IMG/VR virus record: IMGVR_UViG_3300033148_001127
Location: 1 to 25,966 of that record
DNA: 25,966 nucleotides
Reading direction: 5' to 3' (one strand)
Origin: a virus
Positions 7,957-25,966 of this stretch are shown one piece after another (positions within the stretch are counted from its first letter, which is position 1; each line of letters starts with the position of its first letter). The translations under genes and the position numbers were made by a program. The notes under the pieces are model-generated. The model was given only the letters and a program-made list of their open reading frames with translations, searched no databases and had not been told where the DNA came from.

Positions 7957-10187
7957 CTAATTATCTGACTTAAGTTGCCTTTATTGCTATACCTTGCAAA
8001 GTTAATCAATATTCTTGATTCTTTTCTTTCAGGTTGGTACAAGTGTTTTTGACAAGCCATAATAGCTAATCCTGAACTAATTGACGCATCATACTTAGTT
8101 CTGTTACTTATATCAAACCTTGCCCAATCCTCAAGAGTCCTGTTAAAAGGCATTGTATTCATATCTCCTTCTTCAGTTTTTAAACCAACGTGTTTCTCTA
8201 TAAATGATTCAATAGCAGCAGCGTGAGCTTGTTTAACATCCTCACTCGAGTTGGGTATACCCCCTAACTCTCTTTCTGTTTTTGAAAGTTTAGTAAACAC
8301 TTTGTCGGGTCTATTCATACAATAACCTCTATACCCTCTGTTTTTAAAATGGTATAATAATCTTGGCTTGTTATTTTCAATTAATATTGGCATACCATAA
8401 AATACACACGCCATCAAAACATCTTCAAAAAATATTTCTGCAGTTTGTGGTCTTGCGATATACTCTAAAAAAAACTCATTACTTGGTGCTTCTTCCATAC
8501 TAAATTTAGTTAGTCCGTGTAATGCACCATTAGAGCCTTTGCCTCCTACTGTTCCTGATATGTCATATGAGTCACAACCGAAAGCTCCTATATGTTCATT
8601 TCCGGGATATCTAATCCCGTTCTTTGTTTTTATATTGTTCTGTAAATTAATGTTGGGTACCCACGTAATTAAAAACCTTCCTCTTTTGTCAGGGGAAAAT
8701 AAAACCTTCGAATCTTTTATTCCGTCCTTCCAACTAAAAGAACCACGTGTAACATATTGGTCCGTAATCATTCCGTCATTATAATCTATCTGCTGATATA
8801 TCTTTGTCAGATTAAATAATGATTGTTTGCTTTCATCTCTAAATGCGTGAGACTCTGTTCTTGGAAACTGTCTATAATATTCATTCAAAGCATCAGCATC
8901 ATTCTTTAATGATTCAACTTCATTCTCCCAATACTCAATAGCACCCATAGATATAGTTTCATTGTCTATACCTAAAACTTTTACAGTAGGTGTGTCTAAA
9001 ACAGGATTGCCATATCTATCTATGAATCCTTCCATATTCCATTCCATAGGAATAAATAGTGAATATAAACCACTTTTTGTTTGACCGTTTGAGTTACGTT
9101 TAGTAACATCTGAGTCATAATACAATTGCTTAAAATTATCCCCACCCTTTGCTAATGCATTGGATGTTGAACCCATCATACACTTACCTATAATCTTGCT
9201 ACCTAAACGTAAACAAGTTTTAGTTACACGCCAATTGTTTAATATATTATTTGGCTTTAGCCATTTTCCACTTTCATCGTGAACTAATAATAATAACTTT
9301 TCACCATCATAACTGTTGTCATCCGTATTCTTCCAATCAATAGTAGTATCTAATCCTTGTATCTCTTCATCATCAGAGTCATACATATTCTTTTTAGTAA
9401 TCTTAGATGCCGGTACACGATAAGCTAATTCTGTTTTTGGTTTATCCATACCATCCATAATCGGTTTGAAAAAGAACGGTAGCCTACTATTTATTGGTAC
9501 TACTTTATCAGTAAACATTTTCTTTGCATCCGAACCCGTCTTTGAAAGTATTCCAACTCTTGAATCTTTTGCGAGTGTACCCGTGTTCACACATTCTGAT
9601 GATGACATAAAAGAAAATCCTGAACGTCTAATCTTTAAATATATCATTCCAAAACTTCTTTTGTCAGCTTTACAAGCCTCCCAAAAAATATACAACAATC
9701 TATTAGCTTCTCTATAGTCAGGATAACCAACATCAATATTAGTCCACTGTAGATACATATAGTGAGCACCTGTTATGTAAGTGGGGATACCGTTGTTCAT
9801 AAACCAACACCCATCTTCTCTATAATCAAACTCTTGCTCAATGTAATCAACCCATCTGCTTTTAAATTCAGAAGGCATATCATTCCATTGAAATATAGAT
9901 TGAATCTTTGATAATTGTTTGGGTAACTCTCGTCTCTCCCAATACTGTTTGCTTTTATCTGAGTGTCTTTGAAGACACTCTTTAGGTGTTTTAGGTAGTG
10001 CAATCTTTAAACCTGATATCTCAATGACATCACCGATTTGTCCTGTCTTAGATATAACAACTACATCATACTTTTCATCGTAACCATAAATCCAAGACTT
10101 ATTACGATTCTTATTACTAAGTACGTTTTTAGGTACGTAATTATTTAGTACTCTATATAGTTCGCTATTTAGACCTTCTTTCTGCAA
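7953..10187 (-). CDS. terL: Terminase large subunit (744 aa)
   Basis: Packaging ATPase and nuclease that drives DNA into the prohead through the portal. Visible motifs: a Walker A-like KIRRSGFSF at 185-193 (the R-R-x-G-x-S form of crAss-type terminases rather than GKT), Walker B LLLLVHDESGKW with the DE pair at 304-305, and a Q-FPRTESHAF coupling segment at about 440-449. The RNase H-like nuclease domain starts around GAFGCDSYDISG with D539 as a likely metal ligand. HYMYLQWTNIDVGYPDYREA near 142-161 also fits crAss-like terminases from memory. The first 23 bases overlap the upstream 92-aa gene. Residues 70-76 (ECLQRHS) are encoded by one copy of the six-copy palindrome. Confidence 0.93.
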   Translation of the reverse strand: MQKEGLNSELYRVLNNYVPKNVLSNKNRNKSWIYGYDEKYDVVVISKTGQIGDVIEISGLKIALPKTPKECLQRHSDKSKQYWERRELPKQLSKIQSIFQWNDMPSEFKSRWVDYIEQEFDYREDGCWFMNNGIPTYITGAHYMYLQWTNIDVGYPDYREANRLLYIFWEACKADKRSFGMIYLKIRRSGFSFMSSSECVNTGTLAKDSRVGILSKTGSDAKKMFTDKVVPINSRLPFFFKPIMDGMDKPKTELAYRVPASKITKKNMYDSDDEEIQGLDTTIDWKNTDDNSYDGEKLLLLVHDESGKWLKPNNILNNWRVTKTCLRLGSKIIGKCMMGSTSNALAKGGDNFKQLYYDSDVTKRNSNGQTKSGLYSLFIPMEWNMEGFIDRYGNPVLDTPTVKVLGIDNETISMGAIEYWENEVESLKNDADALNEYYRQFPRTESHAFRDESKQSLFNLTKIYQQIDYNDGMITDQYVTRGSFSWKDGIKDSKVLFSPDKRGRFLITWVPNINLQNNIKTKNGIRYPGNEHIGAFGCDSYDISGTVGGKGSNGALHGLTKFSMEEAPSNEFFLEYIARPQTAEIFFEDVLMACVFYGMPILIENNKPRLLYHFKNRGYRGYCMNRPDKVFTKLSKTERELGGIPNSSEDVKQAHAAAIESFIEKHVGLKTEEGDMNTMPFNRTLEDWARFDISNRTKYDASISSGLAIMACQKHLYQPERKESRILINFARYSNKGNLSQIIR
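9963..9978 (-). repeat. GTGTCTTCAAAGACAC palindrome, copy 2 (inside terL)
   Basis: Exact 16-base match on the coding (minus) strand within codons for Cys-Leu-Gln-Arg-His of TerL. The inverted repeat extends to GAGTGTCTT/AAGACACTC, so the flanks also pair even though the site is coding. Confidence 0.95.
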
Positions 10188-14344: not shown

Positions 14345-15394
14345 TTAAGGAGTACAGTTGGTAAAGTTAGGCTTAGGTTGTGTCCAATTAGGTTGTAAAT
14401 TAGAAAACCCACCGCACTGTATAACATTGGCAACATTCCAACTACTTAAATTTTGATTATAAACACCCGTAGAAGGACCCCCACATTCAAACATAGCTGA
14501 CATATTAGTCACATTACTAACATTCCAAGAGCTTAAAGGTTGGTTAAATGATATTGCTCTGTTAAACATAAAAAACATATTAGTTACATTACTAACATTC
14601 CAAGAATTAAGCCATTGATTAAAATCACTTGCTGAACGAAACATATTACTCATATTTGTAACGTTACTCACATCCCAATTACTAATATTCTGATTGAATG
14701 AAGTAGCACCTCTGAACATACCACCCAAATCTGTTGCACCGGATACATCCCAACTTGATAGGTCTTGATTAAAGTTATCTGCTGCCTCAAACATTTGGTA
14801 AAAGGCAAACCCTACACCACTGCTCGTATTCCAAGAATTTAATGGAGAGTTAAAGGCATTAGCAGAAGAGAACATAAAACCAAAGTCAGTAACACTACTT
14901 ACGTCCCAAGAATCAATGTTTTGATTAAATGAAGTAGCAGAAGCGAACATAGACTGCATAGTAGTAACACTACTCACGTCCCAATTGTTTAAGGGTTGGT
15001 CGAAAGAATTTTGTCGTTGGAACATACTCCTCATATTGGTGACATTGCTCACATCCCAATTTCCTATAGGTTGATTAAATGCTCCTCCACTTGAGTCCAA
15101 TAAAAACATTTTATCCATATTGGTAACACTGCTCGTATCCCAATTTGAAATATTCCCATTAAAAGAATTTCTTCCCCTAAAGGCTTCAGACATATCAGTT
15201 ACCTGACTAACATCCCAATTTTGAATCTTACCATAAGGCACAAGGTTGTAGTCCCCATTAGGGTCTTGTGCTAATATATCTGTAATTGCTTGGTTAAAAG
15301 TTGCGTCCGTCAAAGGGGTTGGTGGAGGCGGTGGGGTTGAAGATTGATTACCCGCCTCTAATCCTATTCCTATTGCTATTGCTATAGATGCCAT
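14345..15394 (-). CDS. BspA-like leucine-rich-repeat surface protein (349 aa)
   Basis: Contains 11 tandem repeats of about 24-27 residues with the core NWDVSxVTNMxxMFxxAxSF, from about residue 60 to 335. This is the BspA/DUF285-type repeat known from surface proteins of bacteria and Mycoplasma lipoproteins, forming a curved beta-solenoid. The N-terminus is MASIAIAIGIGLEAG, then a Pro-rich linker STPPPPPTPL and a helical lead-in; I recall this hydrophobic start from other phage virion proteins, so it may be an anchor rather than a secretion signal. It lies between structural accessory genes and lysis genes, starting one base after the upstream stop. Likely role: receptor or host-surface binding on the particle (inference). 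Confidence 0.75.
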   Translation of the reverse strand: MASIAIAIGIGLEAGNQSSTPPPPPTPLTDATFNQAITDILAQDPNGDYNLVPYGKIQNWDVSQVTDMSEAFRGRNSFNGNISNWDTSSVTNMDKMFLLDSSGGAFNQPIGNWDVSNVTNMRSMFQRQNSFDQPLNNWDVSSVTTMQSMFASATSFNQNIDSWDVSSVTDFGFMFSSANAFNSPLNSWNTSSGVGFAFYQMFEAADNFNQDLSSWDVSGATDLGGMFRGATSFNQNISNWDVSNVTNMSNMFRSASDFNQWLNSWNVSNVTNMFFMFNRAISFNQPLSSWNVSNVTNMSAMFECGGPSTGVYNQNLSSWNVANVIQCGGFSNLQPNWTQPKPNFTNCTP

Positions 15395-17201: not shown

Positions 17202-17390
17202 TTATTTACTGCAGCCAAAGTTCTTGGCAAAATTTGCCATCTTAACTACATTTGGTTTATATTTATTGGTATTTTTCATTACGGTACTTGCTGCAGAACA
17301 AACGGATTTACCCGGCATATTCTTTTTTGCCCAAGCAGTAAATTTACCTGCGTTGCTTTTTTTAATTTTTATATCTCCTTTTGATTTCAT
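17202..17390 (-). CDS. Small basic protein (62 aa)
   Basis: Begins MKSKGDIKIKKSNAGKFTAW and continues AKKNMPGKSVCSAASTVMKN, ending VVKMANFAKNFGCSK. The KFTxxAKKxxMxxxxxAxxVxxNxxxYxPxxVKxANFAxN pattern is one I recall from small proteins in marine phages and some large algal viruses, usually unannotated. It lies 12 bases from the next gene and 13 from the previous. A possible minor virion or DNA-condensing protein. Confidence 0.65.
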   Translation of the reverse strand: MKSKGDIKIKKSNAGKFTAWAKKNMPGKSVCSAASTVMKNTNKYKPNVVKMANFAKNFGCSK

Positions 17391-19208: not shown

Positions 19209-19459
19209 CTCTTAGTATATTTTTTAGTTACTCTACCTGCCTTAGTATTGGCGACTACTGTTTTACCTTTGGCTCCTGCACGTTTCTTTTTTCGAGCGGT
19301 CTTTGCTCTTTCAGCTTTAGTCATTGACTTAGCTTTAGCTAATGGCAAACATCTGTCAGGGTTCTTTTTATTTTTGCTTGTACCACAAGCTCCTTTAATA
19401 GAACCATCAAGTCCTATACGGACCCACTTTTCATCTCGCCATTTTTTAAGTTCACCCAT
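19205..19459 (-). CDS. Small basic virion-type protein, DUF5872-like (84 aa)
   Basis: MGELKKWRDEKWVRIGLDGS, then KGACGTSKNKKNPDRCLPLA and KAKSMTKAERAKTARKKKRA. I recall the arrangement 'W-x(3)KWVxI ... G-x-CG-x-S ... CLPLAKAxSMTKxxRA' from a family of small basic proteins of marine phages and giant viruses (DUF5872). The two Cys (in ACGTS and RCLPL) are the conserved ones. Lys/Arg-rich tail suggests DNA binding. Start overlaps the upstream stop by one base, stop overlaps the next start by four. Confidence 0.65.
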   Translation of the reverse strand: MGELKKWRDEKWVRIGLDGSIKGACGTSKNKKNPDRCLPLAKAKSMTKAERAKTARKKKRAGAKGKTVVANTKAGRVTKKYTKR

Positions 19460-19617
19460 TACTTCTTACTTTTCTTTGCGTAGTTAGGGTCTTTACAATA
19501 TTTACTCGCAGCCATATTCGCATAGGCTGAAGGATATGTGTCAAAGGTTCGCTTTGCCCAAGCAATCCCTGCTGCACATATCTTATTTCCTTTCTTCTTT
19601 GTTCTTCCTTTTGCCAT
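19459..19617 (-). CDS. Tiny basic Cys-containing protein (52 aa)
   Basis: I chose the start MAKGRTKKKGNKICAAGIAW at 19617; an earlier in-frame ATG at 19647 would overlap the upstream gene, and the MAKGR start matches the pattern of relatives. It continues AKRTFDTYPSAYANMAASKY, CKDPNYAKKSKK. The core CxxGIxxAKRxFxxYPSAYANxxASKYC is one I recall widely in marine phages and giant viruses. Probable minor virion protein; function unknown. Confidence 0.7.
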   Translation of the reverse strand: MAKGRTKKKGNKICAAGIAWAKRTFDTYPSAYANMAASKYCKDPNYAKKSKK

Positions 19618-19636
19618 TATGTTGCTTTTGCTTGTA

Positions 19637-20005
19637 TTACAATCCACTCAACGCCATCAGACCAAACTGCACATCCGTTATATGCTTTAGTAATTTCATA
19701 TTTACAAAACGAATTTTTCTATAAGGTATTTCTGTAGCACTTGGTAATATAAGTTCATATGTTCCTGCACCACCTGCCCAATCAAAATCAACTATGTTGA
19801 CCATCTCTGTAAGCGTTTTAGAACCTCCCGATGAAGCAGTAATAAACAATACAGGTGAAAGCAAATTGATTGATTCGGTACAAGATATACATACATCTTC
19901 AATAGTATATGCATCTCGCCCTGCATTCAACTGTGCTGAACCTTTATTAACTGTGCTTATTCCCGGAGCAACTCCGTGAAATTTTGTTCCTTTAGGTATA
20001 CTCAT
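19637..20005 (-). CDS. Virion accessory protein with module-A N-terminus (122 aa)
   Basis: Starts MSIPKGTKFHGVAPGISTVN, then KGSAQLNAGRDAYTIEDV, the clearest copy of module A. The remainder is short (about 80 residues), beta-rich, with GGSKTLTEMVNIVDFDWAGG and TEIPYRKIRFVNMKLLKH. It abuts the upstream 74-aa gene without gap. As with its relatives, the conserved first 42 residues are likely a docking segment. Confidence 0.65.
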   Translation of the reverse strand: MSIPKGTKFHGVAPGISTVNKGSAQLNAGRDAYTIEDVCISCTESINLLSPVLFITASSGGSKTLTEMVNIVDFDWAGGAGTYELILPSATEIPYRKIRFVNMKLLKHITDVQFGLMALSGL

Positions 20006-20230
20006 CTATGCGGGTGTTGATGGTTTTGAGCCAAGAGTTTTTAATCCTGCTATTCTTGTGTTAGAGGATGTGTTGCGTTTTTTCTTTCTGCCTAACTCCT
20101 CTTTTAACCTTTTGTTTTCAGCAGTCATCTTCTTAATAGCGTTAGCTTGTTTATTCTTGAAGGTGATTGCATCTAACTCTTCCTGCAGGGTTTTTTTCTT
20201 ATCTTCCTTATTTTTTTCTTCGTCTGCCAT
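20006..20230 (-). CDS. Small coiled-coil protein, first gene of the accessory operon (74 aa)
   Basis: Highly charged helix: MADEEKNKEDKKKTLQEELD, then ITFKNKQANAIKKMTAENKR, followed by a basic stretch (GRKKKRNTSSNTR) and a Pro/Ser tail. No known family. It starts 18 bases downstream of the minus-strand promoter box of the palindromic divergent promoter at 20238-20255, and heads a gene row that continues without clear terminators to 11389. Possibly a virion or assembly factor by association. Confidence 0.65.
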   Translation of the reverse strand: MADEEKNKEDKKKTLQEELDAITFKNKQANAIKKMTAENKRLKEELGRKKKRNTSSNTRIAGLKTLGSKPSTPA

Positions 20231-20237
20231 AATTAAT

Positions 20238-20255
20238 TAACTTTGTACAAAGTTA
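20238..20255. promoter_or_regulatory. Perfectly palindromic divergent promoter
   Basis: TAACTTTGTACAAAGTTA is an 18-base perfect palindrome that presents the Bacteroidota -7 box TAACTTTG on both strands (20238-20245 plus, 20248-20255 minus). It lies between the minus-strand accessory operon (start 20230) and the plus-strand winged-helix gene (start 20277). The two boxes overlap the same DNA face, so only one polymerase could sit at a time, giving a built-in switch. The palindrome may also bind a dimeric regulator such as the adjacent gene product. Confidence 0.65.
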
Positions 20256-20276
20256 CTAAATTAAATCAATTTTATT

Positions 20277-20711
20277 TTGAACAATGATTACCTTAAATAT
20301 TGGAGAGTTATACGTCAGTACATAAAAGTTAAATACGGACTAACTCAATCCGACCTTGATATTATATTATTCCTGAACTCTGAAGGATATTTTGATAAAG
20401 ATAAATTCAGTGAGTTTGATAGCATCCTGTCTTGGGATGAACAAAGATTTAATAAACTACTTCGTGATGGATGGATTGAAGTGTTCAGAAAAAGAAAAGG
20501 TAAGGTGAAGGGGTTGTATATGTTGTCATACAAATCAAAAAGAGTTATAACCTCTATCTATAAAAAACTAAATGGCGAAGAGTTACCTACCTCGCCATCA
20601 CAGAATCCTATGTTTCTTAAGAACGTGTCTTACTCAGACAAACAATACAGAAAAGCTATTATGAATATGAATGAGTTTATAAGACAACAACGACATCTCT
20701 CTGCTGAATAA
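20277..20711 (+). CDS. Winged-helix transcription-regulator-like protein (144 aa)
   Basis: Residues about 15-105 read as a winged helix: KYGLTQSDLDIILFLNSEGY, FDKDKFSEF, SWDEQRFNKLLRDGWIEVFR (recognition helix then wing), KRKGKVKGLYMLSYKSKRVI. This is MarR/PadR-like in layout; I recall very similar proteins next to virion accessory genes in marine Bacteroidota phages. A helical tail follows (QNPMFLKNVSYSDKQYRKAI). It is transcribed rightward from the palindromic divergent promoter and its last 35 bases overlap the 3' end of groES on the other strand, so the two transcripts would converge. It is a good candidate for controlling the late genes, by inference from position only. Confidence 0.6.
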   Translation: MNNDYLKYWRVIRQYIKVKYGLTQSDLDIILFLNSEGYFDKDKFSEFDSILSWDEQRFNKLLRDGWIEVFRKRKGKVKGLYMLSYKSKRVITSIYKKLNGEELPTSPSQNPMFLKNVSYSDKQYRKAIMNMNEFIRQQRHLSAE

Positions 20712-20934: not shown

Positions 20935-22541
20935 TCTTTTGTTTCATAACTACGTGCCATAGTGACAATAGCGTTGGTTGATAAAATAGTTACTGCAACT
21001 GATACTGCATTCTGTAGAGCTTGTCTTGTTACTTTCACAGGGTCAATAACTCCAAGTGTCATTAAGTAACCGTACTTGTCTTTCTTTACATCATATCCCC
21101 ACATAGAACCTTTGCAGTCACTGTAAATTTCTTCAGCATCTAACCCTGCATTATCCAATATCTGATACAATGGTGCTTTAAGTGCGTTAGCCAAAATTGC
21201 GTAAGCAATTTTTTTCGCAGAATTTTTTTCAGCATTCTGTTTCATTTCATATGTCTTGTGCATATTGAATAGAGTCAATCCTCCACCGGGTAGTATTCCT
21301 TCCTCAAGTGCAGAGCGTACCGCACATACCGCATCATCAACTCGGTCATACAACTCTTTCTGCTCGAGGTCCGTGTTTCCACCTACATACACAACACCAA
21401 TTCCACCTGACAATGAAGCTATTCTTTGATTGATGAACTCTTTGTCCTCTTTACGTTTCGCATTTTTATGAGCATCCTGCAATTGAGATACTCGCTCCAA
21501 CACCTCTTCACTTGATTCTTGCTCATCTTTAACGATGACCGTTGAGTCACGACTAACTATCACCTTAGCACAGTGACCCAAATCGTTGAATGAAATCAAA
21601 CTCAAATCATCGCCTGTCTTCTCACTGAAGTATGTGGCACCCACGCTTATTGCAATATCTTGCATCAGCTCGTGCTGACGATATCCGAAGTCGGGTGGAT
21701 TGATAGTACATATCTTCAGTCCATTCTTAATTACGTTAGCTGCCAATGTATTTGTTACATTGGTTGAGGTTGGTGCTATAATTAATAGCTTCTTACCCTC
21801 TTGTATGATTGGTTTTAGAATATTCTCAATCTGTAGTATGTTATTTATCTCGGTATCACATACAAGTACATAAGTGTCTTCAAAGACACATTCGTCACGT
21901 TTTTGGTCGTTGATGAATAATGTGGATGCGTATCCTCTTTTTATCTTAATACCTTTGGTGGTCTCATAGTATGTGGATGAGGTCTTACTTTTCTCAACTG
22001 TCACTACACCATCTTTACCTACACTTTCGTAGACCTCCGCTATGATGCCGCCAATATGTGCGTCATTGTTCGCTGAGATAATGGCAACGTCACGCATTCT
22101 CTTTTCGTCTAACTTCTTGCCTTTAACTTTTAACTGCTTTGCTATCTCTTTCGTCTCACTAACTAAATGTCGCAGGACTTCTGTTCGGTTGACACTGTCA
22201 TCCATAATCTCTGTACCGGCATTGACCAATGCCTCCGCTAAAACAATAGCCGTAGTTGTTCCGTCACCTGCTGATGATGCAGTACGGTCTGCTGCCTCCT
22301 TCATCATACGAACCGCAAGGTTCTCTACAGGGTCCATAAGTGAAATTGATTTAGCTACTGTTACACCATCCTTAGTCACGGTGATTCCGTGTAGATGTTC
22401 AGGTGACTCAATGAGTACCGTGTTACCTCGTGGTCCAAGAGTTGACTTGACCGCATTGGCGATTTTGTTTATACCACTAATTAGTTTGTTACGACCTTCA
22501 TCAGAAAAGTGAAGTTCTTTTGGCGTGAATCCATTTTGCAT
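20931..22541 (-). CDS. groEL: Chaperonin GroEL (536 aa)
   Basis: ATP-driven folding ring, near full length (E. coli 548 aa). Conserved ATP-site residues are visible: D58 in TKDGVTVA, D93 in AGDGTTTA, the catalytic D403 in RVDDAVCAVR, and GGG at 419-421; GVIDPVKVTRQALQNAVSVA near the end is the usual equatorial motif. The C-terminal GGM tail is missing (ends ARSYETKE), which changes the chamber floor. Composition is close to the plus-strand genes rather than to the AT-rich structural genes, suggesting different codon preference or later acquisition (by eye). Its promoter box is at 22567-22574. Codons around 219-223 carry one copy of the six-copy palindrome. Probable clients are capsid and other phage proteins (inference). 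Confidence 0.95.
   Translation of the reverse strand: MQNGFTPKELHFSDEGRNKLISGINKIANAVKSTLGPRGNTVLIESPEHLHGITVTKDGVTVAKSISLMDPVENLAVRMMKEAADRTASSAGDGTTTAIVLAEALVNAGTEIMDDSVNRTEVLRHLVSETKEIAKQLKVKGKKLDEKRMRDVAIISANNDAHIGGIIAEVYESVGKDGVVTVEKSKTSSTYYETTKGIKIKRGYASTLFINDQKRDECVFEDTYVLVCDTEINNILQIENILKPIIQEGKKLLIIAPTSTNVTNTLAANVIKNGLKICTINPPDFGYRQHELMQDIAISVGATYFSEKTGDDLSLISFNDLGHCAKVIVSRDSTVIVKDEQESSEEVLERVSQLQDAHKNAKRKEDKEFINQRIASLSGGIGVVYVGGNTDLEQKELYDRVDDAVCAVRSALEEGILPGGGLTLFNMHKTYEMKQNAEKNSAKKIAYAILANALKAPLYQILDNAGLDAEEIYSDCKGSMWGYDVKKDKYGYLMTLGVIDPVKVTRQALQNAVSVAVTILSTNAIVTMARSYETKE
21874..21889 (+). repeat. GTGTCTTCAAAGACAC palindrome, copy 3 (inside groEL)
   Basis: Exact 16-base match on the plus strand, which is antisense to groEL; the coding strand reads the reverse complement through codons for Cys-Val-Phe-Glu-Asp-Thr. 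So unlike copies 1, 2, 5 and 6 it is not in sense orientation, and it encodes a different peptide from the terL copy. Confidence 0.95.
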
Positions 22542-23499: not shown

Positions 23500-23515
23500 G
23501 TGTCTTCAAAGACAC
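23500..23515 (+). repeat. GTGTCTTCAAAGACAC palindrome, copy 4 (control region)
   Basis: Exact match on the plus strand, at the boundary between the C-rich tract and the A-rich leader of the rightward operon. Not next to a stop codon, so terminator function alone does not explain this copy. Confidence 0.95.
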
Positions 23516-23657
23516 AGACATACAGAGATATGCTTTAACCACACCCCAACGTAAATTACCCCTAAACAAATCACACTGAACAAAAGCCACGTAACTTGTT
23601 GATTTACAGAGTAAAAAAAAGAAATGAACATAAAATGAAAAAAAATAAAACAAAACC

Positions 23658-23687
23658 TTTGGAAATCCATTATTTAGACGTATATTG
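23658..23687 (+). promoter_or_regulatory. Candidate promoter of the rightward operon
   Basis: TTTG at 23658-23661, 19 bases, then TATATTG at 23681-23687, close to the Bacteroidota TTTG-n-TAnnTTTG layout but with an imperfect -7 box. A roughly 55-base A-rich leader follows before the ATG at 23749. The imperfect box suggests weaker or regulated use, or recognition by a different sigma factor. Confidence 0.4.
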
Positions 23688-23748
23688 CACACTGAATGAA
23701 CGAGGAATAGTCCTCAATTAAACGTAAACAATTAAAAATCAGTAAGTT

Positions 23749-24381
23749 ATGACACATTTAATGCAAATCGAGGCAGACTTTTTAGCATCTGCCGAAGTAC
23801 GAGAAAGTTTAAACTTTCAATCAATTTTCAATCTTCAATCTGAAGTATCAGATGCGAAGAAGAGCAAGTTCGAGAAGTCGCTCAAGTTAGCGAAGTTAGT
23901 TCACCAATCGTTCAATTGGTTTGACAAAGAAGAGACCAAAGTTCTTATGGAAGAGAACGGAGTCGAATGGAGTTCAAAAGAGATGTTCATCAACAGAGTA
24001 TTTGGGTGGCAAAAGTCGTTCGGATACAAGATGAACAAAGTCGGTAAGTTAGCGACAGAGAATGCTCAAGTAGTGACGAAGTTCAAGAGAAAGTGTACTG
24101 CTCTTGAGAACAATGGCGAAGATGCCAAGAGAACAATCGAAGAGTTATTGAAGTTCGCTAATGCCGAAGAGAATGGTGAAGAGACATCAGTAGCAAGAGA
24201 GAAAACCTTTGCAACATTCAGCATCGCAAAGAATGGTCTCAATGGCGATAGCGGTTACTCTGTAAGGTTGACCGAAAGCGGTGTGAAAGTTAGCGGTGCA
24301 GTCGAAGACGAGAACATCCAAAGCAAAATTGACGTTTTGTTTATTTCGTTATTTAATCAGTTAGAACAAATCAATTCATAA
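23749..24381 (+). CDS. Unknown charged helical protein (210 aa)
   Basis: I do not recognise the family. Residues about 1-110 are mostly helical and Lys/Glu-rich (SDAKKSKFEKSLKLAKLVHQ; KMNKVGKLATENAQVVTKFK), about 110-145 acidic, and about 150-195 beta-like (FATFSIAKNGLNGDSGYSVR; LTESGVKVSGAVEDENIQSK) before a helical end FISLFNQLEQINS. No signal, membrane or catalytic motif. First gene of the rightward operon, followed three bases after the stop by a copy of the palindrome. Base use is visibly higher in G/C third positions than the leftward genes. Confidence 0.65.
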   Translation: MTHLMQIEADFLASAEVRESLNFQSIFNLQSEVSDAKKSKFEKSLKLAKLVHQSFNWFDKEETKVLMEENGVEWSSKEMFINRVFGWQKSFGYKMNKVGKLATENAQVVTKFKRKCTALENNGEDAKRTIEELLKFANAEENGEETSVAREKTFATFSIAKNGLNGDSGYSVRLTESGVKVSGAVEDENIQSKIDVLFISLFNQLEQINS

Positions 24382-24384
24382 TCA

Positions 24385-24400
24385 GTGTCTTCAAAGACAC
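24385..24400 (+). repeat. GTGTCTTCAAAGACAC palindrome, copy 5 (before the amidoligase-like gene)
   Basis: Exact match on the plus (sense) strand starting three bases after the stop of the 210-aa gene; the hairpin extends to AGTGTCT/AGACACT with loop TCAA. No T-run follows, so it is not a normal intrinsic terminator; it may act as a transcript 3' end or RNA-processing element. Confidence 0.95.
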
Positions 24401-24419
24401 TACAAAAACGTAGCACAAA

Positions 24420-25421
24420 ATGAGAAATTTATCAAACATCGGAGTAGAGTTCACTAACACCAACGACTATGGTCGTGGCGAAGTTCAATCCTACCACTGC
24501 AAACCAAGTCCAATCTTCCGCACCAAAGCACAACAGATGGACATCAATGGTCTCAAATCAGAAGACCGAAGAAACATCATCATAGATGGTGACGAGTTCG
24601 AGAGCAAGTTCACAATCGGTTTCGAAATCGAGAAGACACGTCTTCACAGAGGAAGTGTCCAAGAATACCCACTATTCTGTGGGTTTGAGACCGATAGTTC
24701 TTGCGGTTATGAAGCGGTGACACACGTTCTACCATTGGTATCGAAGTCAATGTGGCGTACGAAAGTTTTCAATATGTTCGCTGAAGCGAAGTACATCATC
24801 GAGGACAGATATTCACCGAGTGACTATTCTTGTGGTGGTCACATCACAATCGGTGTCAATGGGATGAGCGGTGTTGAGTTGATGAACAGAGTACGTGAGA
24901 ATAGCGGTATCATCTTTTCTATATTCCGTAAGCGACTTATGAACAGATATTGCAATGGTAACGTGATTATGAGTGAAGATAGCACAAGTTTCGGTGAGAA
25001 GTACGTTGTTGCAAAGCCGAATAGCAATTCACTTGAGTTCCGTATTCCAAGCAGAGTTACATCAGTGAAGCAGTTGATGAGAAGATACGAGTTGATGTAC
25101 GTTCTTCTTGACTTTTCAATCAACACACCGAATGCACGTAAATCAGTTCTGTACAATCGTTTGAAGCCAATCGTAGCATCAATGTACGAGCGTGATATGG
25201 ACAAGGTCAACAAGATTATGGAGTTGGCAAAACACTTTGACAAGTTCCTTAAAACCAAGAAAGTTGACCAAAACACTTGCGGTTGGCTCGAGGGTTGGTG
25301 GTCACGTAGCCGATGCAGAATGGGTAGCAAGAGAAGTTTATACAAGCGTAACTACAGACCATTGCTATCACAAGCACACTATGTGAATGAGTTTATGTCC
25401 AAGTGGCAAGGGTTAGTGTGA
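24420..25421 (+). CDS. Amidoligase-like (GCS/glutamine-synthetase-fold) enzyme (333 aa)
   Basis: Motifs fit the Amidoligase_2 COOH-NH2 ligase family: GFEIEK at 67-72 (paired Glu E69, E71), a D92-SSCGYE98 segment where E98 should be a metal ligand, CGGHITIG at 138-145 (H141), and SLEFRIPSR at 204-212 (E206, R208), which are the usual metal/ATP and substrate residues. The C-terminal 120 residues are helical and basic (SRSRCRMGSKRSLYKRNYRP). Such enzymes join an amine to a carboxylate using ATP; substrates in phages are unknown. It lies between palindrome copies 5 and 6, and the hammerhead ribozyme is 37 bases after its stop. A family match is a judgement from motifs only. Confidence 0.6.
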   Translation: MRNLSNIGVEFTNTNDYGRGEVQSYHCKPSPIFRTKAQQMDINGLKSEDRRNIIIDGDEFESKFTIGFEIEKTRLHRGSVQEYPLFCGFETDSSCGYEAVTHVLPLVSKSMWRTKVFNMFAEAKYIIEDRYSPSDYSCGGHITIGVNGMSGVELMNRVRENSGIIFSIFRKRLMNRYCNGNVIMSEDSTSFGEKYVVAKPNSNSLEFRIPSRVTSVKQLMRRYELMYVLLDFSINTPNARKSVLYNRLKPIVASMYERDMDKVNKIMELAKHFDKFLKTKKVDQNTCGWLEGWWSRSRCRMGSKRSLYKRNYRPLLSQAHYVNEFMSKWQGLV

Positions 25422-25435
25422 GTACTAATGGGGTA

Positions 25436-25451
25436 GTGTCTTCAAAGACAC
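25436..25451 (+). repeat. GTGTCTTCAAAGACAC palindrome, copy 6 (upstream of the ribozyme)
   Basis: Exact match on the plus strand. Flanks extend the stem to GGGG-TAGTGTCT / AGACACTA-(T)-CCCC with one bulge or wobble. It ends six bases before the hammerhead ribozyme, so the two form one compact RNA structure after the amidoligase-like gene. Confidence 0.95.
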
Positions 25452-25457
25452 TATCCC

Positions 25458-25506
25458 CTGTCCACAGGTGAGTGCCTGTGCTGATGAGTCCAAAAGGACG
25501 AAACAG
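25458..25506 (+). ncRNA. Type III hammerhead ribozyme (self-cleaving RNA)
   Basis: All core positions are present. Stem III: CTGT (25458-25461) pairs ACAG (25503-25506), including the U16.1-A15.1 pair. Cleavage site: the C at 25462 (position 17), with the cut between 25462 and 25463. Stem I: CACAGG (25463-25468), loop TGAGTG, CCTGTG (25475-25480). Core CTGATGA at 25481-25487. Stem II: GTCC (25488-25491), AAAA, GGAC (25496-25499). GAA at 25500-25502 then A15.1. Closed stems I and II with open stem III make it type III. Stem III is short (4 bp). It lies between the amidoligase-like gene and the 101-aa gene (start at 25528), in the sense direction, so it should cut the shared transcript between them. 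Confidence 0.92.
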
Positions 25507-25527
25507 AAACCTTAAAATAATAATGAA

Positions 25528-25833
25528 ATGGAATTAATTTTAAACAACATCGACATCAAATCGAAATTTGTAAATGACAAAAACGTTGAGGAAATCCTCA
25601 TCACTACTGACGCTGAAGCGTTCAGTACCCTAACCAATCACGAAGACTTTGAATGGAACAAGGTGGTTGAGTTCGGTATGAAACGAATTGTAGTATCACC
25701 TTTCTACTCAGAGTTCGAGTTGGTTGACTATGACAAGGTAACCGCAGTGTGCATCCGTTACAACAATGGGTTGTACGAAGACACAGAGTTGGTTGTAAAC
25801 CACAAAGAAGAATTACTAAACATCTTAAACTAA
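25528..25833 (+). CDS. Unknown small protein downstream of the ribozyme (101 aa)
   Basis: Acidic alpha/beta protein: MELILNNIDIKSKFVNDKNV, then ILITTDAEAFSTLTNHEDFE, WNKVVEFGMKRIVVSPFYSE, and a C-terminal strand-helix LVVNHKEELLNILN. I recognise no family. The ATG is 21 bases after the end of the hammerhead ribozyme, so after cleavage its mRNA would begin with a 5'-hydroxyl and the folded stem I-core-stem II leader. That leader may change mRNA lifetime or translation. No Shine-Dalgarno; the leader is A-rich. Confidence 0.65.
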   Translation: MELILNNIDIKSKFVNDKNVEEILITTDAEAFSTLTNHEDFEWNKVVEFGMKRIVVSPFYSEFELVDYDKVTAVCIRYNNGLYEDTELVVNHKEELLNILN

Positions 25834-25860
25834 TTTAATAACACATAAAATCAAACACAA

Positions 25861-25966
25861 TGAGAAATTTATTTAACACAATCGAGAAATCAATCACATC
25901 ACTAATCGCAATCGGAGTACTATCTATGGTATTACGTTTATTCATTCACATCGCTATGTCACACGA
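25861..25966 (+). CDS. Small membrane protein, partial at right edge
   Basis: Visible part reads MRNLFNTIEKSITSLIAIGV, LSMVLRLFIHIAMSH and continues past the window. Residues about 12-33 (ITSLIAIGVLSMVLRLFIHI) form one hydrophobic segment with a following His/Ser region, so a small membrane protein. Its first codons and leader (CACAATGAGAAATTTAT) nearly repeat those of the amidoligase-like gene at 24420. Start is 27 bases after the previous stop. Confidence 0.55.

Follow-up and report, generated by a model that had tools for sequence, protein, structure and literature searches.

Hammerhead ribozymes that occur in clusters in phage and prophage genomes have already been reported (Perreault et al. 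2011, PMC3088659). Among the results presented there, three hammerhead arrays underwent self-cleavage during transcription in vitro, and division of long phage RNAs was suggested as a role (PMC3088659). The theta ribozymes of gut phages are also self-cleaving ribozymes of tailed phages, and are discussed, in the relevant part of that study, together with tRNA 3′-end processing (PMC10879173). The role of prokaryotic hammerheads in general was described as an open question in a passage of a 2017 review (PMC6155905).

The locus considered here lies in a 25,966-base viral record, the whole of which was analyzed and is referred to as the window. It resembles the clustered phage hammerheads in that hammerheads flank phage genes; in the latter, however, the flanked genes are not constant, whereas here one gene keeps the ribozyme (78 of 92 junctions), and the section of that paper on phage hammerheads mentions neither an upstream hairpin nor a tRNA-like replacement (PMC3088659). 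Theta ribozymes, as characterized in the part of that work concerned, are HDV-like, unlike the hammerhead described here, which occupies an mRNA junction that in some relatives holds a tRNA-like element instead (PMC10879173). With the Rfam family RF00008 the ribozyme shares the core CUGAUGA...GAA, the U-A pair at 16.1/15.1, C17, closed stems I and II, and an open stem III, but it differs in scoring below the gathering score, in its 4-nt stem II loop, in the hairpin flush with its 5′ side, and in pair 10.1-11.1, which is often unpaired in relatives. Organelle transcripts are punctuated by tRNA structures that show where the RNA is cut between genes; the elements reported herein, in contrast, are without an anticodon arm, alternate with ribozymes, and belong to phage DNA. 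The best matches of an open-access literature search contained no hairpin-hammerhead composite, no such palindrome as that described below, and no anticodon-less phage tRNA. The ribozyme alone is a further example of the reported class, and the hairpin-hammerhead composite is a variant not matched in that literature.

Genomic context of the ribozyme

The window encodes a large terminase (744 aa) with 77% identity to that of MW202828, a podovirus record from Manatee Spring, and 46% identity to that of Flavobacterium phage elemoA, with Cellulophaga and Tenacibaculum phages being more distant. Judging from these relatives, the window probably derives from a phage of Bacteroidota. A GroEL-like chaperonin is also encoded, and a 349-aa protein (14345-15394) contains four DUF285 stretches (Pfam E 4.6e-117).

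The gene upstream of the ribozyme (24420-25421, +) encodes a 333-aa protein that the initial annotation had termed amidoligase-like. This protein had no Pfam match, and neither amidoligases nor glutamine synthetases were represented among the Pfam matches of 33 members of its family (E 0.1). Its predicted structure (pLDDT 90.8), on the other hand, was nearest to glutamine synthetases and carboxylate-amine ligases. Specifically, Foldseek matched glutamine synthetases, GmaS, Dop, and YbdK, albeit with TM of only 0.2-0.34, and the best match was GmaS (E 2.4e-4, prob 0.99, TM 0.3). In VIA-align (Z 8.1-9.1), all 50 matches shown were glutamine synthetases, GmaS, or YbdK-type ligases, for example the glutamine synthetase 4bax (Z 9.1, 170 residues, rmsd 3.7). 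The label is thus reasonable at the level of the predicted fold, and we retain it in that sense.

The downstream gene (25528-25833, +) encodes a 101-aa protein with no assigned function and no PHROG or Pfam match. Among the loci examined it was present only in the window (L002), in the near twin G002 (L126, 97%), and in L063 (54%). A terminator-like site was not seen on the + strand from 23600 to 25966. A Bacteroidota promoter consensus had three matches in the window, which is within chance, so that the two genes are only presumably co-transcribed.

A type III hammerhead and its conservation

Positions 25458-25506 (+) comprise a complete type III hammerhead that lies between the two genes, both on the + strand, and is in the sense orientation, as the initial annotation had it. 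The 5′ strand of stem III (CUGU, 25458-25461) and C17 (25462) are followed by stem I, in which CACAGG (25463-25468) pairs with CCUGUG (25475-25480) around the loop UGAGUG. Next are the catalytic core CUGAUGA (25481-25487), stem II, formed by GUCC (25488-25491) and GGAC (25496-25499) with the loop AAAA, and finally the GAA core (25500-25502) with the 3′ strand of stem III (ACAG, 25503-25506). These assignments came from the sequence together with the RF00008 alignment or, for stem I, covariation. All conserved core positions (CUGANGA, GAA, H17, U16.1-A15.1) and all three stems are present, with stem III open and stems I and II closed. The expected cut, derived from C17, falls at 25462/25463, the same position that had been given initially.

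In a 501-base cmscan search, which is the covariance scan recommended in the initial annotation, RF00008 (Hammerhead_3) aligned over its full length at 40.5 bits (E 2e-7), a score below the 48.5-bit gathering score of the family. The default Rfam scan of the whole window returned no family at its gathering score, nor was a hammerhead reported at gathering thresholds in seven loci, six of which have a descriptor hammerhead; this threshold is too strict here. Our type III descriptor, which requires at least 6, 4, and 3 pairs in stems I, II, and III, had no matches on either strand of 200 randomised copies of the window. In the thermodynamic fold, the hairpin and stems I and II were formed, but stem III was not, the CUG of the core pairing with CAG instead. 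Folding programs leave the tertiary contacts within hammerheads out of account, and covariation is therefore better evidence than this fold.

An exact match to a 30-base piece of the ribozyme was found in three other viral contigs, two of which have a different downstream gene. A broader search, with a pattern that fixes letters of loop I and the core, nothing in stem I, and two of the stem III 3′ letters, matched 109 viral stretches. The 72 distinct viral 49-mers that fit this pattern in the loci examined, the window's own included, were used for covariation. Stem I was paired in 432/432 cells; each of its outer four pairs showed every Watson-Crick type, and each of its inner two showed two or three. 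Pairing of stem III was seen in 287/288 cells, two of its 3′ letters being fixed by the pattern. Over the 12 pairs counted, 97.0% of cells were paired, versus 66.2% when columns were re-dealt and 31-43% when partners were slid. A comparison of relatives for compensatory changes had been proposed in the initial annotation, and the identification of 25458-25506 as a type III hammerhead is well supported.

The exception was the first pair of stem II (10.1-11.1), which was unpaired in 24 of the 72 sequences (22 U.U and 2 A.A, e.g., G006:57326 and G002:29531), and in 15 of 66 in the set from the junction after the amidoligase-like gene. Position 17 was A or U rather than C in 22/24 sequences with this mismatch versus 9/48 of the rest, while in the junction set the link between the mismatch and a non-C at position 17 was weaker (10/15 versus 11/51). 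We suggest that the combination may mark a slower-cutting variant class. Loop I, which would take part in a tertiary contact with loop II, was conserved among the 66 distinct junction cores, which had not been chosen by loop (UGAGUG in 24, UGUGUG in 10, UGUGUA in 10, and UGAGUA in 5). The same hammerhead sub-family was also found in 13 bacterial genome contigs (L390-L402), most of them labelled as Patescibacteria groups, and others as Polynucleobacter and Aliivibrio.

The junction downstream of the amidoligase-like gene

Junctions were chosen in viral contigs by similarity to the amidoligase-like protein alone, the query alignments themselves coming mostly from hammerhead-selected loci. The best-scoring 80 of 240 and the best-scoring 80 of 233 relatives, after duplicates by sequence context had been dropped, provided 92 distinct 3′ junctions, which are related and not independent; three more loci were too short. 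A type III hammerhead followed the gene in 78 of the 92 distinct junctions of these best-scoring relatives, and according to our script the other 14 comprised eight with a T-arm element and six with neither. In control windows, the type III descriptor had 0/1654 matches antisense and 0/318 sense, and the T-arm had 6/1654 and 9/318, respectively, some of the latter being the same kind of element located farther upstream (L427 at 147 and 907). Among the junction hammerheads, that of L440 was matched by Rfam.

The six junctions with neither element were varied. That of L420 has a hammerhead with the core CUGAUGU, the only one of the 92 in which a core base was lost while the gene was kept, a situation that the initial annotation had named as evidence against its reading. 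The L536 junction has a palindrome-like hairpin only, and those of L441 and L552 had no recognised element. The L433 and L479 junctions share another hairpin element, AGAAACGG-N6-GAUUUGGUGGUAGAAAC. A hairpin followed by GGUGGUAGAAAC was observed near 2487 in L433 and near 2469 in L479 (+), as well as near 11157 in L137 (-), and is possibly one more cutting element.

The ORFs that follow the gene were diverse, with 40 families among 77 ORFs in the best 80 of 240 loci and 21 members in the largest, although the count is approximate, since a small number of ORFs were assigned starts that lie within the ribozyme core. Because the downstream ORFs vary while the hammerhead stays, the ribozyme belongs with the preceding gene.

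On the upstream side of the amidoligase-like gene, a hammerhead was located at a distance of up to 300 nt in 11 of 91 loci, and neither element was present in 75 of 91. Various arrangements were seen: in G002 a type III hammerhead is followed by a type I hammerhead about 600 nt away, in G003 a mini-tRNA-like element precedes the gene and a hammerhead follows it, and in L439, L446, and L469 T-arm elements are on both sides. Hammerheads on both sides of a gene, as in the 11 loci, or in succession, as in G002, would also suit a scenario in which paired hammerheads release segments that are then joined into circular RNAs, as in retrozymes. We consider this highly improbable, given the 75 loci with neither element upstream and given that an RtcB ligase was found in only one of 16 records searched, phi38:1, which itself has no descriptor hammerhead; it is possible, though, that a ligase would come from the host instead of the phage. 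The RtcB-type RNA ligase of phi38:1 (NC_021796), a Cellulophaga phage, is encoded at 19247-20650.

A hairpin flush with stem III

Directly 5′ of the ribozyme, the fold of 25422-25515 contains a 12-bp hairpin (25430-25457, +) that is flush with stem III. The initial annotation had mentioned this hairpin in passing and had counted six bases from it to the cut; since the hairpin ends at 25457, the tail is 5 nt. Our comparisons indicate that the hairpin is a conserved part of the element. For these we assembled type III hammerheads, most of them retrieved with hammerhead patterns, that differed in sequence context, and required at least 5, 4, and 3 bp in stems I, II, and III. This reduced 141 to 134, the excluded ones having stems that were too short or an upstream sequence of under 45 nt. 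A strong hairpin was defined as one of at most -8 kcal/mol that ends within 6 nt of stem III. Such a hairpin was present 5′ of stem III in 112 of the 134. The control rates were 11% in shuffled sequence (five shuffles averaged per hammerhead), 2% on the downstream side, 14% at a greater distance upstream, and 8% in front of type I hammerheads. It was found in 83/94 of the sub-family with the UGWGUG loop and in 29/40 other type III hammerheads. In the set unfiltered for pairing, the corresponding values were 64/72 versus 19% of single shuffles and 1/72 downstream. At the junction after the amidoligase-like gene, 67 of the 78 hammerheads have a strong flush hairpin and 11 do not, and among hammerheads of bacterial genome contigs only 3/14 have a strong one (at most -8).

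The position of the hairpin is precise. In 67/93 and 23/34 of the cases with a hairpin, no base separates the best hairpin from stem III, and for strong hairpins of the unfiltered set the gap to stem III was 0 or 1 in 55/64. Moreover, a stem III of at least 7 bp was more common among hammerheads without a strong hairpin (5/22) than among those with one (2/112; Fisher p 0.0013). Both observations fit an explanation in which the hairpin serves the ribozyme and not the mRNA, forming a coaxial stack with its short, open stem III that aids the folding of a ribozyme that cuts for whatever purpose. We regard this as a serious possibility, though not the probable one, because hairpins of the same palindrome also adjoin the 5′ side of certain mini-tRNA-like elements, and these lack a stem III. 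The latter finding argues for a role of the hairpin in guarding a 3′ end, whereas the more frequent occurrence of a long stem III where a strong hairpin is missing argues for stacking, and the two may operate together. In addition, G002, G005, and G006 have a type I hammerhead elsewhere of which stem III is the same hairpin, and a cut at these sites would likewise leave an upstream product that ends right behind the hairpin.

Mini-tRNA-like elements in place of the hammerhead

Most of the T-arm elements fit one architecture. The element in L416 (2607-2651) reads AGAGCGG-UUUGGAAAUUUA-GAGGGG(UUCGAGU)CCCCUC-CCGCUCU, and that in L430 (2604-2648) differs from it in the acceptor stem, where both partners of a base pair are changed (AGAGCGU/ACGCUCU); others were present in L539, L514, L535, and L541, among further loci. 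A descriptor of this mini-tRNA found 43 stacks over all loci examined, versus one in a single randomised copy. Twelve of the 43 were within true tRNAs, and 29 distinct elements remained, each with an acceptor plus T-arm stack of 11-13 bp, as the descriptor requires, and the T-loop UUCGANY. YGG, which is not a requirement of the descriptor, was present in the linker of 26/29, and in 22 of these 26 it was enclosed by at least 2 bp, versus an expected 5.2 when the linkers were shuffled (maximum over 1000 shuffles, 13). With linkers of only 8-18 nt, the elements have no tRNA anticodon arm. Seven of the eight T-arm junctions fit the descriptor, the exception being L469, with its 30-nt linker.

The T-loop and the stacked acceptor and T-arm are those of tRNA, and ARAGORN found no tRNA in the 79 junction loci scanned, nor did Rfam give a tRNA match in 13 loci scanned. 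Such a combination might be taken to indicate decayed tRNA genes that are no counterpart of the hammerhead. We think this distinctly unlikely in view of what has been retained, namely the 11-13 bp stack (descriptor-required) in 29 distinct elements, YGG and the pairs that surround it, neither of which was required, and the paired acceptor-stem change between L416 and L430, and in view of the 43-to-1 excess over randomised sequence, even with the 12 tRNAs included in the 43. The elements instead look like tRNAs reduced to an acceptor stem, a mini D-arm, and a T-arm, and perhaps represent a new RNA family.

Their connection to the hairpin was variable. A palindrome of the kind described below was located within 45 nt 5′ of only 13/29 elements, and in L416, L430, G003, and G010 the palindrome hairpin was within 2 nt or so of the 5′ end. 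The tRNA-like elements of L427 and L446 share bases with the stop codon of the upstream gene, such that a cut at their 5′ end would harm the upstream message.

A dispersed 16-bp palindrome

The core of the hairpin upstream of the ribozyme is GTGTCTTCAAAGACAC (25436-25451, +), a 16-bp palindrome that is dispersed across the window in six exact copies. Two more of these are on the + strand at 24385-24400, just upstream of the amidoligase-like gene, and at 23500-23515. A fourth + strand copy, at 21874-21889, is inside the chaperonin gene and antisense to it, while the - strand copies are inside the terminase gene (9963-9978) and in a hairpin between genes that has a T run after it (2831-2846). 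Allowing up to 3 mismatches on both strands, the window had 12 matches versus a chance mean of 0.40. The 16-mer was not found in the open-access literature searched.

When as many as 2 mismatches were allowed, the palindrome was repeated in 11 of 13 related records. In 14 records (the window and G001-G013, with G010 covered to base 60,000 of 60,484), the 16-mer and its close variants had 4-16 copies in 12, in either orientation and also within genes. In a separate count of perfect 7-bp arms around a 2-base centre, the arm GTGTCTT was present in 5-16 copies in 11 of the 14 records, and certain genomes have their own versions, with GTGTCCT seven times in G007 and GTGTCGT 14 times in MW202828 (43745-55154). 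No palindrome family of at least 4 copies was found in G008, G012, elemoA, phi38:1, phi13:2, or Gundel_1. In the terminase gene, 16/16 columns of the site were invariant in the nine non-window records that carry it, records that had been picked for having the site by a search pattern that left some of the 16 positions open; the mean 16-base window had 2.9 invariant columns, and 4.6% of third positions were invariant. MW202828, G012, and elemoA, which lack the site, have other codons and residues there. A gene-content comparison for a protein restricted to palindrome-bearing genomes gave no clear DNA-binding candidate.

These patterns point to a sequence-specific site, probably in DNA, that forms the hairpin core at some hammerheads. 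The stoperators of cluster A mycobacteriophages are likewise present in many dispersed copies of a short site across the phage genome; the site here differs in being a 16-bp palindrome, in occurring also within genes and in either orientation, and in its use as the core of a hairpin. The copy numbers, the genome-specific versions, and the invariance of the terminase site could mean that hairpin and palindrome are mainly a DNA element, such as an operator, partition, or packaging site, that the hammerhead adjoins by accident of descent. That is unlikely in our judgment, for many type III hammerheads have an unrelated hairpin in this place: the palindrome was in the hairpin of only 25/94 sub-family hammerheads and 34/78 of those at the amidoligase-gene junction, and G005, G008, G011, and G012 retain the hairpin with another sequence. 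A role of the palindrome as a DNA site and a role as an RNA hairpin can hold together.

A putative cutting site in phage transcripts

The reading that we prefer is that the type III hammerhead with its flush 5′ hairpin probably serves in cis as a place where polycistronic phage RNA is cut. The processing of polycistronic RNA that the initial annotation had envisaged thereby stood, by comparison only, on a position kept in 78 of 92 junctions, a varying ORF after it, and the T-arm element in eight. That the hammerhead is mostly kept, with a T-arm element instead in some relatives, suggests that both divide long phage RNA into separate mRNAs. In this mechanism, the ribozyme would fold during transcription and cut after C17 (25462). 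The amidoligase-like mRNA would keep the hairpin, a 5-nt tail, and a 2′,3′-cyclic phosphate, a short, blocked 3′ end that 3′ exonucleases would engage poorly, and the hairpin would guard this new end after the cut. The downstream mRNA would begin with a 5′-OH and the folded stems I and II. At the same junction of related phages, the mini-tRNA-like elements would be cut by RNase P, RNase Z, or both. From these arrangements we infer that the RNA is cut in the cell, which enzymes would act, and any gain in mRNA stability.

Several of the observations above count against the cutting site. The Rfam score is below the gathering score, and stem III is absent from the thermodynamic fold. A strong hairpin is missing from 11/78 junction hammerheads and was found in only 3/14 on bacterial contigs, and the palindrome is near only 13/29 mini-tRNA-like elements. 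The stop-codon overlap in L427 and L446, and the longer 30-nt linker of L469, likewise do not favor it.

The presence of a hammerhead in 78/92 and of a T-arm element in 8/92 at one and the same junction points to one shared job, RNA cutting between genes, and at this junction the idea of a shared job is testable. Extending it, we tentatively propose that a large group of Bacteroidota phages may use RNA punctuation with interchangeable marks, namely type III and type I hammerheads and anticodon-less mini-tRNAs, often behind a palindrome hairpin. The mini-tRNAs, composed of an acceptor, a mini D-arm with a YGG loop, and a T-arm, would form a class without a name in the RNA tools applied. Such marks would cut polycistronic RNA and leave a hairpin near the mRNA 3′ end, and transcription would not be stopped. 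We rate this wider proposal as plausible, somewhat short of probable. If true, it would provide a function for prokaryotic hammerheads and would mean that a ribozyme and a substrate of RNase P/Z are mutually replaceable.

A cultured system for these elements may exist, since elemoA (NC_055852), an isolated Flavobacterium phage, has two descriptor hammerheads elsewhere in its genome, a type I and a type III, on the - strand at 17341 and 19112, which are absent from its listed features. Finally, rows of type I descriptor hammerheads were observed in L109, L047, and L110, with eight, seven, and five within about 5.5, 4, and 1.6 kb, respectively.
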